From Pseudomonadales bacterium (GTDB lineage Bacteria > Pseudomonadota > Gammaproteobacteria > Pseudomonadales > Pseudohongiellaceae), in assembly GCA_012103535.1 (NCBI GenBank), contig WLWQ01000003.1:806001-870000 (forward strand): 64,000 nt of DNA, written 5' to 3'. The position numbers were made by a program, and so were the translations under genes. The stretch's first letter is position 1. The number at the start of each line of letters is the position of its first letter. Below, piece after piece: positions 8,009 through 64,000 of the stretch. The notes below the pieces were generated by a model. That model worked only from the letters and a program-made list of their open reading frames with translations, did no database searches and was not told the DNA's origin.

Positions 8009-8689
8009 ATGAACACTGAGCAAGAAGCAGTAGAAGAGAACATTCCTAAAGTTACTTATTTCGACGCCCGCGGTCGAGCCGAAGTTATTCGTATTCTATT
8101 AGAAGAAACAAATACGACTTATCACGAAAGAAGAATCTCAATAGAAGAGTGGCCGGAACTAAAATCTAATTTCACCTTTGGCCAACTGCCAGTTTACGAA
8201 GAGGGAAGTCTGCTGCTCAATCAATCAAACGCAATCTATCGCTACCTGGGCAGAAAATTCGATCTCTATGGAGACAGCATGTTTGAGCATGTTCGTTGCG
8301 ATATTGTTCAGGAAACCTTTGTAGATGCACAGAATACTCTGGGGGGATTTTTCTGGAATCCAGATTTCGAAAAATTACGGGATGAATTTGAAAAAAGTGA
8401 ACTACCTGATCTTCTTCTAAGGATGCAGGGATTGTTTGAAACTAACAGTGAAAATAGTGGATACTGGGTTGGCAATCGATTAAGTTTCGTCGACATCATC
8501 GCCTGGCATTTTCTAGATTACGTCCGGCCCTTTTCGCTAAAGACCTTGTGTCAATTCGAGCAGCTCTGTCGTTTTAAAGAACTAATCGAAGAGCGACCTC
8601 GAATTTCTGCCTACCTGAATTCAGACAGAAGGCCTAAAACCATGACCGTAGATCTCGCTCCATTCGGCGGAACTCCTGAAACCAGTTAA
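8009..8689 (+). CDS. Glutathione S-transferase, sigma-like class
   Basis: A 226-residue cytosolic-type GST. The N-terminal thioredoxin-like domain has YFDARGRAEVIRILL, a motif typical of sigma/mu/pi-like enzymes with a catalytic Tyr (about residue 17), followed by the cis-proline region FGQLPVYEEG and the glutathione-binding QSNAIYRYLGRKF. The all-helical domain contains the N-capping region NRLSFVDIIAWHFLD. A GGAGG site lies 11 bp before the ATG. The stop is 3 bp before the next gene, a TraB/TIKI-like exported protein, so the two are probably co-transcribed. Sigma-like GSTs are commoner in animals but occur widely in marine Gammaproteobacteria. Confidence 0.88.
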   Translation: MNTEQEAVEENIPKVTYFDARGRAEVIRILLEETNTTYHERRISIEEWPELKSNFTFGQLPVYEEGSLLLNQSNAIYRYLGRKFDLYGDSMFEHVRCDIVQETFVDAQNTLGGFFWNPDFEKLRDEFEKSELPDLLLRMQGLFETNSENSGYWVGNRLSFVDIIAWHFLDYVRPFSLKTLCQFEQLCRFKELIEERPRISAYLNSDRRPKTMTVDLAPFGGTPETS

Positions 8690-8692
8690 GCG

Positions 8693-9568
8693 ATGACCTC
8701 AACAATTAAAATAATTCTATTCTTTGTTGTTTCCTTAATTGCTAATACTCTAAGTGCACAATCAGAGGATTCTAATAGCAGCTTCGTAAAATTTGTCGCT
8801 GGAAGCGGGGAATGGCAGGGGGAGCTGCAAACTGCAATAGTCAGTTATGAGAATTCGGACGGAGTTATTGTCGATTTGGTTTCGGCAGTACATCTAGGTG
8901 AAGTTGAGTACTACGCAGAACTGAATGATTACTTTAAACAACAGGATGCAGTGCTTTACGAACTGGTTGCTTATGAAGATGACAGACCATCTCCAGAGAC
9001 TGTTATTGAGAATGTGTCCGCAGTTAGTTTTTTGCAGCGTACACTTGGTAATTTTTTGGATGTAAGTTTTCAACTAGAGCAGATCGATTATTCACCTGAA
9101 AATTTCATACATGCCGATCTAAATCCTGATGAGTTAATGCAAATCATGGAAGAAAAGAATGAAAATTTCTTTTCAATGTTTCTCTCCCTTGCCACCGCAC
9201 AACTCGCCAGTGAACAAGCCGCAATGCAACAAGGAGAAGCCCCTACATCCTTTACTATGCTGGCAATAGTCAATGCCTTGTTAGCAGAAGATCAAACGGC
9301 GGCGTTTAAGTACTTGTTTGCAGAGGAGCTTGGACGTAGTGATGGTCTTATAGTGGGCCCCGAACTCGAGAATCAAATCACAATTCTGGGTGATCGGAAC
9401 CGAGTTGCATTGCAAGTATTGGGCAAGTCACTGAAAGATCCCTCTTATAGAAAAATCAGCATTTTTTACGGTGCGGCGCATATGCCGGGAATAGAAAGAG
9501 AGTTGTTCAGTAGTTTCGATTTTGAGCGGACTGAGCAAAGTTGGGTAACTGCCTGGAAAATGCCATAG
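8693..9568 (+). CDS. Exported TraB/TIKI-like protein
   Basis: A 291-residue protein with a cleavable signal peptide (about residues 1-22, ending LSAQS). The mature part shows scattered motifs of the TraB/TIKI/GumN fold: SAVHLGE (GxxH-like) near residue 63, an acidic YELV, an Arg in GDRNRVAL near residue 241, and FYGAAHMPGIE near residue 262. Some members are metalloproteases (TIKI) and others have unknown chemistry; whether this one is active is not clear. It starts 3 bp after the GST stop. Fold assignment is by motif order and is moderately sure. Confidence 0.65.
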   Translation: MTSTIKIILFFVVSLIANTLSAQSEDSNSSFVKFVAGSGEWQGELQTAIVSYENSDGVIVDLVSAVHLGEVEYYAELNDYFKQQDAVLYELVAYEDDRPSPETVIENVSAVSFLQRTLGNFLDVSFQLEQIDYSPENFIHADLNPDELMQIMEEKNENFFSMFLSLATAQLASEQAAMQQGEAPTSFTMLAIVNALLAEDQTAAFKYLFAEELGRSDGLIVGPELENQITILGDRNRVALQVLGKSLKDPSYRKISIFYGAAHMPGIERELFSSFDFERTEQSWVTAWKMP

Positions 9569-60201: not shown

Positions 60202-61149
60202 CTAAGATACGCGGCGGCCGCCTCTGAAATCCATTTCCTGAGTATTGCCTGCGGAATCGTAGTACCTGCCTGGTCCATCTCTTTCACCCCGTAACCAGGG
60301 GCCTACATAGCGATCACCATTGGCGAAGAAATAGGTACCATTTCCGTTCAGCCGATCATCACGAAAACCGCCTTCAAAACGATTGCCGTTGGCATAGAAG
60401 AAGATGCCTTGTCCGTTCATTTGATCATCGAGCCATTGGCCTTCATAGCTATCGCCGTTGGCCCAATATTTCGTTCCTTGCCCGGATTGCAGGCCATCAC
60501 GCCATTGACCTTCATAACGATTGTCATTGGCCCAATAATAAGTGCCTAAGCCATGCCGCACGTTGTCACGAAAGTCTCCCTCGTAGCGATTACCGTTAGT
60601 CCAAGTAAAAGTGCCGCGACCGTTTTGTAGTCCTTGGCGCCACTGCCCTCGGTATTCATCGCCGTTTTCATAAAAATAGGTTCCTTCACCGGAAAACTGA
60701 TCGTTCTCCCAATTCCCTTCGTAACGAGCGCCATTCAAAAAGTAATAGTTGCCACGTCCAGTGCGCCGGTCATTGCGAAACTGCCCAACGAAGCGTTCGC
60801 CGTTTTGTCGATAAAGGGTACCCTGGCCATTGCGCCGACCGTTTTGAAATTGGCCTTCATAGCGATCGCCATTAGCAAAGAAATAAACACCTCTGCCATT
60901 TTTCTGATCTGCTGCGAATTGACCTTCGTAACGGTCACCATTAGTGAGATAGAGCGTACCCTGTCCTTGGAAGTAGTTACTAACGCACTGACCTTCATAG
61001 CGATTTCCGTCCGACCAACGATAAACCCCAGTACCAGACGGGCAAGAGCCCTGCAACCAACCATTGTCGGCAGCGTTAACAGGAATGGAGAATGCCAGTA
61101 GAAATACCGAAAGTAGGGACGTGCTGATGAGGATTAATCTTTCTTTCAT
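60202..61149 (-). CDS. Exported MORN-repeat protein
   Basis: A 315-residue protein with a signal peptide (ending VNAAD). The mature part is eleven complete MORN repeats of 23 residues (for example GTYFFANGDRYVGPWLRGERDG) plus a degenerate twelfth, and one disulfide-like Cys pair near the start. At the DNA level the repeats have a 69-bp period. MORN proteins form extended beta sheets that bind partners or lipids; an extracytoplasmic role in surface binding is inferred. No operon partner is apparent. Confidence 0.88.
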   Translation of the reverse strand: MKERLILISTSLLSVFLLAFSIPVNAADNGWLQGSCPSGTGVYRWSDGNRYEGQCVSNYFQGQGTLYLTNGDRYEGQFAADQKNGRGVYFFANGDRYEGQFQNGRRNGQGTLYRQNGERFVGQFRNDRRTGRGNYYFLNGARYEGNWENDQFSGEGTYFYENGDEYRGQWRQGLQNGRGTFTWTNGNRYEGDFRDNVRHGLGTYYWANDNRYEGQWRDGLQSGQGTKYWANGDSYEGQWLDDQMNGQGIFFYANGNRFEGGFRDDRLNGNGTYFFANGDRYVGPWLRGERDGPGRYYDSAGNTQEMDFRGGRRVS

Positions 61150-61790: not shown

Positions 61791-61926
61791 AAGATTCTCC
61801 TTAAATCTGGACGTAAGCCATAATAATTTAGCACGTCGTTAAACGAAATAGGGCGCTTTCAACGCCTGGCAAGAGCTCGAGAATTGGGGGCTTGGAGGGT
61901 TTACCTAGATTGATTTTGAAAAAGGC

Positions 61927-61955
61927 TTGCAATAAATAATAGACTGGTCTAATAT
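61927..61955 (+). promoter_or_regulatory. Promoter with embedded TetR operator, copy 1
   Basis: TTGCAA-N17-TAATAT, with the palindromic TAGACTGGTCTA (61940-61951) inside the spacer. Transcription would start within about 2 bp of the ATG, giving a leaderless mRNA. The same 21-bp sequence recurs after the gene (62569-62589). Autorepression is likely. Confidence 0.78.
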
Positions 61956-61962
61956 TCGAAAC

Positions 61963-62556
61963 ATGGCCAGAACCCGAGACCAGGAAAGATATCAGCAAAG
62001 CAGAGAGCAGCTGCTCGCAGTTGGGCAGGATCTTTTCATCAACAGCAGTTTTAACTGTGTTGGTCTCAATGACATATTGAAAAAGGCTGGAATCCCGAAG
62101 GGTTCGTTTTATCACTATTTTGAAAGCAAAGAGGATTTTGGTCTCCAAGTAATTGAAATGTACGCGAAGCAGAATTACGAAGAATTGAAAACAATCGTAA
62201 GTGATAACTCTTTAACGCCTTACGAGCAGTTGGAAAAATTTTTCGAAACCAACATCGCCCACTTTGATGACATTGATTATTGCCAGGGATGTTTGATGGC
62301 AAATCTTTCACAAGAGCTTGCAGATGTGAATGAGAAACTACGTTGCAAGATAAATGAGTTATCCCAATTGGCAGTCGATCAGATAGCAGAATGTATTGAA
62401 AACATGGCAGCGAATGAATTGAATTTGAATCATCTGGAACCAAGAGAAGCAGCGCAGGTTTTAATGAATTCATGGCAGGGCGCCATCATGAAAATGAAAC
62501 TAGAGAAGAGTCGTGAGCCCCTCAACGTATTTATGAAATTCTTCTTCAGCCGCTAA
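61963..62556 (+). CDS. TetR/AcrR-family transcriptional regulator
   Basis: A 197-residue TetR-type regulator. Helix-turn-helix GLNDILKKAGIPKGSFYHYFESKEDFGLQVIE is a good match to AcuR/NemR-like regulators; a Cys pair in YCQGCLMANL suggests electrophile or redox sensing, known for NemR-like proteins. It sits between two identical copies of a TAGAC-N2-GTCTA palindrome. It probably represses itself and the downstream mlaA-like gene. The likely TSS is next to the ATG. Confidence 0.88.
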   Translation: MARTRDQERYQQSREQLLAVGQDLFINSSFNCVGLNDILKKAGIPKGSFYHYFESKEDFGLQVIEMYAKQNYEELKTIVSDNSLTPYEQLEKFFETNIAHFDDIDYCQGCLMANLSQELADVNEKLRCKINELSQLAVDQIAECIENMAANELNLNHLEPREAAQVLMNSWQGAIMKMKLEKSREPLNVFMKFFFSR

Positions 62557-62568
62557 AAAAATTTGAGT

Positions 62569-62589
62569 AATAAATAATAGACTGGTCTA
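62569..62589 (+). promoter_or_regulatory. TetR operator, copy 2, upstream of mlaA-like gene
   Basis: An exact 21-bp copy of the sequence in front of the TetR gene, including TAGACTGGTCTA and its AT-rich left flank. It lies 12 bp after the TetR stop and 64 bp before the mlaA-like ATG, near candidate -10 sequences (TATTTA, TAATAT). It probably controls the mlaA-like/cupin transcript. Confidence 0.75.
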
Positions 62590-62653
62590 TTTAATATAGT
62601 TCACAGACAAAATATCGAGGTTGCGAAGGGCAATCAGAATTGGAGCAGGAGCA

Positions 62654-63421
62654 ATGTTGAAGTTAAGAACGAACCCAGTAATTCCCAGATTTAAGGCTCT
62701 CCTTGGTTTGCCAATGCACAAGATGTCCCGTCCCCTGGGCATCGCATTGGCACTCTTTTTAATGCTAAGTGCAGTCAGTGTTCCTGTCCATGCCGCTGCG
62801 GAAAGCGATCCTCTCGAGTGCCTGAATCGAACCACTTACAGCTTCAATCGCGGCATCGACAAACTATTTTTCAAACCACTAGCGACAAGCTATAAACAAG
62901 TTACACCTGCTTTTTTGCAGCGAGGTGTGCGTAACATTTTTAAAAACCTTGACGACGTCCGCGTTAGTTTTAACGATGTGTTGCAGTTAGATTTTAAACA
63001 AGCTTCGGCGGACTTAGCCCGAGTAGCGATTAACACCACGCTAGGAATAGGCGGTGTATTTGATGTGGCCAATGACAGTTTTGGACTCAGAAAAAACCGC
63101 CAGGATTTCGGCATGACACTCGCTCATTACGGGGTAGGATCAGGTCCATATATTGTTCTTCCGCTATTCGGTCCTAGTACCCTTCGCGATGCATTTGGTA
63201 TTGGCTTCGATAGAGGAGTAGATTCTGTGGCAAACCTTTCTCATGTCGCAACAAGAAATTCTCTTAGCACTGGCAAAGCCGTTGATTTTCGCGCTAGCGT
63301 GTTAAGCTTTGATGACCTGATCGTGGGTGATGAATATCTTTTTGTTAGAGGTGCTTATCTACAGCAAAGAGATTTTGCAATTCATGGTAGATTTCCTGAA
63401 TTTGCCTTCGAAGATTTTTAA
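62654..63421 (+). CDS. MlaA (VacJ)-like phospholipid-transport protein without lipobox
   Basis: A protein of about 255 residues matching MlaA: the DPLECLNRTTYSFNRGIDK opening (canonical DPLEGFNR), GLRKNRQDFGMTLAHYGVGSGPYIVLPLFGPSTLRDAFG and so on. MlaA is normally an outer-membrane lipoprotein that removes phospholipids from the outer leaflet; this one has a signal peptide ending PVHAAAES and no lipobox, so it may be soluble or anchored otherwise. Start at ATG 62654 (GGAG 8 bp upstream); ATG 62714 is an alternative. The genes mlaBCDEF are not nearby. It is under a putative TetR operator. Confidence 0.82.
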   Translation: MLKLRTNPVIPRFKALLGLPMHKMSRPLGIALALFLMLSAVSVPVHAAAESDPLECLNRTTYSFNRGIDKLFFKPLATSYKQVTPAFLQRGVRNIFKNLDDVRVSFNDVLQLDFKQASADLARVAINTTLGIGGVFDVANDSFGLRKNRQDFGMTLAHYGVGSGPYIVLPLFGPSTLRDAFGIGFDRGVDSVANLSHVATRNSLSTGKAVDFRASVLSFDDLIVGDEYLFVRGAYLQQRDFAIHGRFPEFAFEDF

Positions 63422-63435
63422 CAGAGCAAATTGCA

Positions 63436-64000
63436 ATGCTAAATATGGATTTCTCGCAACGAGTAGTAGTAAGTACTGATGCCTTGGAATGGCAGCAGAG
63501 TTCGAAGGAAGGTGTATGGAGAAAACCTTTAGCTCGAGAAGAAGCCGAGCGTGGCCATGCAACCAGTATTGTTAAATATGAACCCGGTGCCAGTTTTTCA
63601 GAACACGGGCATCCATTGGGAGAAGAGATTCTCGTGCTTGAAGGAACCTTTTCTGACGAAACGGGCGACTATTCTGCAGGGACATATTTTAGAAATCCCG
63701 AAGGTTTTAGGCATACGCCATTCAGCGAGGCGGGATGTATAATTCTGGTGAAACTGCATCAGTTTCAAGAACAGGACACCTCTCATGTCCAGGTGGAGTT
63801 GGATAAAGCCGAATGGGAACATACTGAAAACGGGCTGCAAATTCTCCTTCTGCATGAATTTAACAATGAAAAAGTTGCGCTGATTCGCTGGCCAGCAGGA
63901 TTACAAATACCCCTGCATTCCCATGACGGAGGTGAAGAAGTTTTCGTAATGCAGGGAAAGTTTAGCGATGAACATGGCAAGTACCCAGTCGGAACCTGGG
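63436..64000 (+). CDS. ChrR-like double-cupin protein, cut by window end
   Basis: A partial gene that runs off the window at 64000; 188 codons are visible. Two cupin units have metal-binding patterns: first FSEHGHPLGEEILVLEG (His, His, Glu) and HTPF; second IPLHSHDGGEEVFVMQG (His, His, Glu). This ChrR-type cupin (anti-ECF sigma family, PF12973) usually binds zinc or another metal; without a neighbouring sigma-factor gene in view, it may be a stand-alone cupin. It begins 14 bp after the mlaA-like gene, so it may share the TetR-controlled transcript. ATG 63445 is an alternative start. Confidence 0.72.
   Translation, partial: MLNMDFSQRVVVSTDALEWQQSSKEGVWRKPLAREEAERGHATSIVKYEPGASFSEHGHPLGEEILVLEGTFSDETGDYSAGTYFRNPEGFRHTPFSEAGCIILVKLHQFQEQDTSHVQVELDKAEWEHTENGLQILLLHEFNNEKVALIRWPAGLQIPLHSHDGGEEVFVMQGKFSDEHGKYPVGTW

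Follow-up and report, generated by a model that had tools for sequence, protein, structure and literature searches.

Three traits are established among relatives of the regulator considered here: they repress their own genes, thiol-reactive agents or acrylate release them, and their mRNA is leaderless. In Rhodobacter sphaeroides the acuR promoter (TTGATT, TATTAT) is overlapped by an inverted repeat, TAATAGAC/n6/GTCTATTA; the published account places the 5'RACE start at the gene's own AUG, which makes the mRNA leaderless, reports that operator mutations render expression constitutive, and gives acrylate as the co-inducer (PMC3017554). Opinions on NemR are divided: oxidation of Cys106 is reportedly sufficient for the bleach response, while another study favours Cys21 and Cys116 (PMC3739934). 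The operator given for DitR is CATAC-N5-GTATG (PMC9342713).

With the acuR-acuI-dddL system, as described, the present locus shares a TetR regulator, an operator lying over the promoter and a probably leaderless mRNA (autorepression having been shown for AcuR); it differs in having n2 instead of n6, an mlaA-like gene in place of acuI/dddL as target, and a second operator ahead of that target. E. coli NemR is its best sequence match in the PDB and has the aligned sensor cysteine and the TAGAC half-sites, but nemR of strain K-12 is preceded by TAGAC-N6-GTCTA and followed by nemA and gloA, and NemR has no cysteine at the position of Cys107 (see below). AltR of Pantoea ananatis, a further repressor related to NemR, likewise has a key cysteine that is conserved and an operator at the promoter of its own gene; it differs, on the published description, in its operator (CAATCTAC-N6-GTAGATTG) and in controlling the alt cluster (PMC13178969).

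The locus lies in a 64 kb window (the whole stretch of DNA that was analysed) of a 4.53 Mb genome whose closest named relatives were assembled from metagenomes, two of them under the title Pseudohongiella (Gammaproteobacteria, Pseudomonadales, Pseudohongiellaceae). Its parts, in window coordinates, are these:

61927-61932, plus strand: -35 element TTGCAA of the predicted tetR promoter (TTG in 15 of 17 covered loci, the window's included; TAG in two)
61931-61951, no strand assigned: copy of a 21-bp repeat upstream of tetR, with a predicted operator TAGAC-N2-GTCTA at 61940-61951
61950-61955, plus strand: -10 element TAATAT of the predicted tetR promoter, 17 bp after the -35 element (TAWTAT in 17 of 17)
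61963-62556, plus strand: tetR, a TetR-family regulator of 197 aa with TetR_N and TetR_C_13 domains, PKGSFYHYF at residues 45-53 and Cys107-x2-Cys110
62563-62568, plus strand: candidate -35 element TTGAGT of the mlaA-like promoter, read by eye, 19 bp before TATTTA
62569-62589, no strand assigned: copy of the repeat downstream of tetR, with a predicted operator at 62578-62589
62654-63421, plus strand: mlaA-like ORF of 255 aa, counted from ATG (the ORF list has an earlier TTG at 62621)
63436-64000, plus strand: ChrR-type, two-domain cupin, beginning 14 bp past the mlaA-like stop and continuing beyond the window's end (216 aa at full length, read from the genome)

We take this to be a local thiol-responsive repressor module, in which a TetR protein of the NemR/AcuR type would act through contracted operators on an MlaA paralogue; sequence comparison and analogy with the relatives just described lead us to give this reading a probability of roughly 0.75.

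The regulator exceeds the Pfam cut-offs for TetR_N (35.2 bits; cut-off 24) and TetR_C_13 (49.2 bits; cut-off 27). To judge from its NCBIfam scores and its alignment with NemR, it belongs to a common NemR/AcuR/CurR branch. Its scores against the AcuR model NF051457 (157.8 bits) and the CurR model NF058643 (132.6 bits) fall below the respective cut-offs of 247 and 300, so neither name applies to it. The closest solved sequence is E. coli NemR (4yze; E 2e-28), and an AlphaFold2 monomer model (mean pLDDT 90.3) superimposes on a TetR protein of Rhodobacter sphaeroides (3bru) with a TM score of 0.86 and on 4yze with 0.82. PA2196, for which a DNA complex has been solved, is also among the related regulators. 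Residues 45-53 we take, from the TetR fold, to be the recognition helix. Among 911 plasmid records returned for the regulator, none reached 60% identity.

The two cysteines differ in distribution. Cys110, in the motif GCL, aligns with Cys106 of NemR and is present in all 111 regulators compared. Cys107 is found in 15 of 15 members of the clade that comprises the full-length regulators of the genus and elsewhere in only two regulators of 96, L115 and L152, the latter with an N5 operator; being nearly confined to the clade, it does not belong to the conserved sensor. The first-pass annotation had read the pair as a device for electrophile sensing. As a family sensor the pair is rejected; sensing through Cys110 is plausible by its alignment with NemR and its constancy among the regulators.

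The 21 bp sequence AATAAATAATAGACTGGTCTA occurs identically at 61931-61951 and at 62569-62589, on either side of tetR, just as had been reported when the locus was first annotated; it is the sole 21-mer that occurs twice on the same strand of the window. Each copy contains TAGACTGGTCTA without mismatch (61940-61951; 62578-62589). This 12-mer is not by itself significant: allowing up to one mismatch, 35 of 100 shuffles reach the window's 2 matches or more, and the whole genome has 3 exact sites, fewer than the 5 of the reversed control pattern, which is chance frequency. The repeat stands above chance because the identity extends over 21 bp within 640 bp and is conserved in relatives (at 17 of 17 gene starts and 17 of 17 gene ends).

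The upstream copy sits in a promoter. In all 17 covered loci the operator falls inside a TTGnnn (or TAGnnn)-17 bp-TAWTAT promoter, and the ATG follows the -10 element at a distance of 6-8 nt (7 nt in the window, where it stands at 61963). A transcript starting about 7 nt after the -10 element would have no room for a Shine-Dalgarno leader, and the tetR mRNA is thus probably leaderless, as analogy with acuR would also suggest. (A technical note: a generic promoter scan does not pick up TTGCAA-17-TAATAT, which has 8 of 12 consensus bases and so falls below the limit of 9; over 61800-62700 it yields one match, to a different overlapping pair of elements, where shuffled sequences average 1.7.) The suggestion that the first operator lies in the spacer of a promoter giving a leaderless message is thereby backed by conservation and by the acuR precedent, the mRNA start itself still being predicted; the arrangement, with the operator in the spacer and the -10 element some 7 nt from the ATG, is that of AcuR found again, and is to that extent already known. 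The promoter of the mlaA-like gene is longer-spaced, weaker and less clear than that of tetR: most loci have a TTG, read by eye, 19-20 bp ahead of a TAWTWA-like -10 element.

How constant is the module? Among 84 genomes of the genus returned by the search, 18 contain the regulator (matches at E 1e-20): 15 at full length (66-100% identity), one truncated (G062), and two that run off contig ends, namely G091 and G073 (the latter in two pieces). Each locus was searched for TAGAC, any two bases, and GTCTA, and the identity of the arms is therefore by construction; the telling points are that every covered locus has the site and that the free central bases are restricted. The site is present 10-12 bp ahead of the tetR ATG in 17 of 17 loci with the start covered, its centre being TG in all 17, and after tetR in 17 of 17 with the end covered (G091 is uncovered there), its centre being CG in 9, TG in 7 and CA in 1. 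G062 has no upstream operator; the 5' half of its tetR is missing, its mlaA-like gene is broken, and the operator between the two is retained (L055 / L112), so that tetR and the mlaA-like gene seem to decay together. The absence of the site from relatives, which the first-pass annotation had named as one of the findings that would count against it, did not occur in the covered loci of the genus.

One genome departs from this picture. G079 (85% complete, 6% contaminated) has the operator (L066 5704-5715) and an intact mlaA-like gene and no match to tetR at E 1e-20; the sequence preceding the operator likewise gives no tetR match. Perhaps the site is in part a feature of the promoter; tetR may also have been lost recently, or the assembly may be at fault. 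The first of these possibilities can be carried to its limit: the repeats would then stem from the duplication of a promoter and be retained for their promoter activity, and the mlaA-like gene would not be specifically controlled by the regulator at all. The overlap of the operator's right arm with the -10 element would fit such an account, as would G079. The left arm, which lies outside both hexamers, is nevertheless there beside the right arm at all 34 sites (a count fixed by the search pattern, every covered locus having the site), distant relatives have the same half-sites beside their own regulators, and mutants of the acuR operator are reported to be constitutive (PMC3017554). We consider the promoter-duplication account very unlikely.

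The repressor module appears to end at its own boundaries. A genome-wide search for the palindrome had been suggested as a check on the first annotation. That search speaks against a wider regulon: in the 18 genomes with tetR, exact TAGACYRGTCTA occurs at 37 sites, 34 of which are the module's own; in the 66 without tetR there are 14, one being the site ahead of the mlaA-like gene of G079. The residue outside the module, 3 in 18 genomes versus 13 in 66, comes to much the same rate whether or not the regulator is present, and the 3 sites in genomes with tetR are without AT-rich flanks. The extended 21-mer, allowing up to 3 mismatches, turns up nothing in the window's genome beyond the two local sites. 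A genome-wide regulon is accordingly rejected.

Behind the second operator there is an MlaA-like gene in 17 of the 17 loci that reach that far (broken in one, G062). Its product has a full MlaA domain, as MlaA/VacJ does (Pfam MlaA, 217.5 bits; cut-off 25), and matches the MlaA of PDB entry 8i8r at E 5e-30, but stays below the cut-off of the PRK15091 equivalog (119.5 bits; cut-off 375), and the canonical lipobox, [LVI][ASTVI][GAS]C, was not found in the first 62 residues of the proteins of 13 loci (for one of which, L071, the frame as printed lacks a start codon there). All 13 N-termini have, by eye, a hydrophobic, signal peptide-like export signal. At least one MlaA match is present in 52 of 61 genus genomes searched. 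In the window's genome the only other match at 1e-10 (C2:243095-243760, that is, L181 4096-4761; 40% identity) is interrupted by a TGA in frame, following residue 188 of the match; barring a sequencing error, this would leave the genome with the regulated paralogue as its one intact copy.

The operator is absent from eight loci of MlaA-like paralogues elsewhere in the genus (L067, L068, L070, L072-L076). A different palindrome, GACCGACCAGTTGGTCTGT, stands ahead of another MlaA paralogue (L067 4325-4343, on the reverse complement of the locus; L068 5727-5745), and in L068 a TetR gene other than the one described here (8139-8738) is found further downstream, apparently in the paralogue's operon. 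Control of MlaA paralogues by TetR proteins may thus be recurrent in the genus. In G024 (L036 8453-7726) the mlaA-like match is split into two pieces that overlap and differ in frame, reflecting a frameshift or an assembly error.

The cupin (Cupin_7, 204.7 bits, found twice by Pfam on the full-length protein; PDB 3o14, E 7e-42) scores 77.1 bits, for the part within the window, against the ChrR anti-sigma factor model TIGR02451, whose cut-off is 124.5. It adjoins the mlaA-like gene in 12 of 14 covered loci (in G024 with a gap of about 700 bp) and not in G082 and G075; G074 and G080 (cut by contig ends), G062 (decayed) and G091 (uncovered) are excluded from the count. In a search of 61 of the 84 genomes, 18 gave a match at 1e-20. 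The cupins of G022, G064 and G059 lie in stretches of 9-9.5 kb that contain neither tetR nor the mlaA-like gene nor the operator, and in G019 a cupin fragment lies at a contig end, the other three being absent from the stretch read. As an obligatory partner the cupin is therefore rejected: the core of the module is tetR, operator and mlaA-like gene, and the cupin is a frequent companion. Of the original proposal that the second operator controls an mlaA-like/cupin pair, the first half gains from the constancy of the gene's position and from family precedent; the second is weaker.

At this locus we infer binding, repression and release largely by analogy. 1) The TetR dimer would bind TAGAC-N2-GTCTA at its own promoter and at that of the mlaA-like gene. 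2) Both operators lie between the -35 and -10 elements, and bound repressor would therefore exclude RNA polymerase. 3) The repressor would be released when Cys110 is modified, possibly by bonding to the clade-specific Cys107. 4) The repressor would probably be made in small amounts from its leaderless mRNA, as AcuR is, and the mlaA-like mRNA would have a normal leader. 5) The N2 operator would be a contracted form of the family operator, with the half-sites unchanged and N2 replacing N5 or N6. 6) More speculatively, the MlaA paralogue, with a presumptive role in outer-membrane lipid handling, would remove damaged or misplaced outer-membrane phospholipids during thiol-reactive stress; phospholipid retrieval at the outer membrane would then answer to that stress. 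Several things count against this main explanation: the chance frequency of the bare 12-mer; the operator without a regulator in G079; the tetR promoter's place below the limit of the generic scan; the by-eye reading of the second promoter; the 14 siteless distant relatives to be mentioned presently; and the spacing itself.

That spacing is where the locus departs, as the comparison indicates, from the norm of its family, a point that the first reading of the sequence missed: the half-sites are those of NemR/AcuR operators (TAGAC, with N5 or N6 between the arms), and the interval is N2 at both sites. A trial of spacings from 0 to 8 over 780 kb from distant relatives (67 of them, at 29-37% identity) placed TAGAC/GTCTA near the regulator genes at N5 74 times, at N2 twice and at N6 once; the rest of the same 780 kb has N5 7 times and every other spacing zero times. 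A site is near the gene in 53 of the 67, and 14 have no site with exact arms. Lone N2 sites accompany two distant regulators from outside the Proteobacteria (L117, Ktedonospora; L146, a cyanobacterial MAG).

When 111 regulators are compared, 15 of 15 full-length members of the genus have N2 upstream and N2 downstream, and 10 members of two order-level groups, f20 and f24, have N5 upstream and N2 downstream; the remaining 86 have N5, N6 or no exact site, except for two with N2 (two further f20 members have N5 upstream, an exact downstream site being absent). The f20/f24 regulators, which are AcuR-like, resemble that of the window in that operators flank tetR and the downstream one is N2 (in L042, for example, where the -10 element is also about 7 nt before the ATG), and differ in the N5 upstream and in what follows: of the 7 of ten loci checked, 6 have a next gene that reads as an old yellow enzyme (3 of them Pfam-confirmed), L195 being different. 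One of these enzymes scores above the NCBIfam cut-off for N-ethylmaleimide reductase and adjoins a gene for S-(hydroxymethyl)glutathione dehydrogenase. At L199, the N5 locus of a further relative, acuI comes after the regulator.

The spacing differs, and the helix presumed to read the half-sites is nearly unchanged. The sequence PKGSFYHYF at residues 45-53 is present in 15 of 15 of the N2 clade, in 9 of 10 of the N5/N2 group (the tenth has one H to Y change) and in 56 of 56 other N5 users, 80 of 81 in all; it is also found in 23 of the 30 regulators that fall under none of these labels. A quick tree gathers the N2/N2 members in one clade (support 97) and does not make them sisters of the N5/N2 group, the fork having a support of 85 amid several long branches; the N5/N2 group forms one side of a branch with a support of 53. 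N2 operators thus occur in at least two groups of the tree, one of which has N5 and N2 around a single gene. A single origin of N2 is not favoured, the case being a weak one in view of the long branches and the modest support.

How can one helix serve such different operators? The half-sites are 7 bp apart, centre to centre, at N2, as against 10-11 bp, a drop of about one-third of a helical turn, and should not fit a TetR dimer of the usual geometry. Perhaps the dimer of the clade has changed in the arrangement of its subunits, with the helix-turn-helix elements closer together or rotated, and the N5/N2 group has a flexible one. That N2 stands at both ends in all 15 full-length members of a single, well-supported clade is what a changed dimer would lead one to expect, but at the ten N5/N2 loci one protein must do both, and the monomer model looks ordinary. 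We regard a rearranged dimer as unlikely.

Another possibility is that the unit being read is not a half-site but GAYYRGTCTA. The N5 spacer is not free: GAYYR occurs in its forward sense in 65 of 74 spacers, in reverse in 1 and in neither sense in 8, where the random expectation is 1 in 128 per sense, and GAYYRGTCTA, contained in most N5 operators, is spelled by the N2 operators too, whose centres are TG, CG or CA and never TA (34 of 34). On this account N5 and N6 operators would be two overlapping copies of the unit, possibly occupied by two dimers, as QacR is described as binding IR1 as a pair of dimers (PMC3022030); at N2 the two copies would coincide and one dimer would bind. The near-identity of the helix in N2, N5/N2 and N5 users suits such a scheme, but the unit was defined after the sites had been viewed, and the counts include operators of shared ancestry. 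We think this quite possible, at somewhat less than even odds. The promoter spacer keeps its 17 bp at the present locus; if the overlap of the -10 element with the right arm at acuR is as the motifs suggest, the four central bases lost in contraction would reappear to the left of the operator.

Put together, and offered tentatively: a near-fixed recognition helix would serve half-sites 2, 5 or 6 bp apart, with GAYYRGTCTA as the shared element; two overlapping dimer sites would have contracted to one; and in the genus the contraction would accompany a change of target, from electrophile-detoxifying enzymes to an MlaA paralogue. The interest of the locus lies chiefly in these two changes, of operator spacing and of target. 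The natural series N6, N5, N5+N2, N2+N2 lends itself to a direct test of how far TetR dimers tolerate a change of 3-4 bp in spacing, and the module hints that an MlaA paralogue may be controlled by thiol stress. Among the open-access matches listed, no report of the spacing change or of such control was found (which is not proof of absence), and the exact operator strings brought up only unrelated papers.

On the other side of the module, on the minus strand (window positions 60202-61149), is encoded a 315-aa protein with eight stretches of MORN repeat, which stays close in several relatives.
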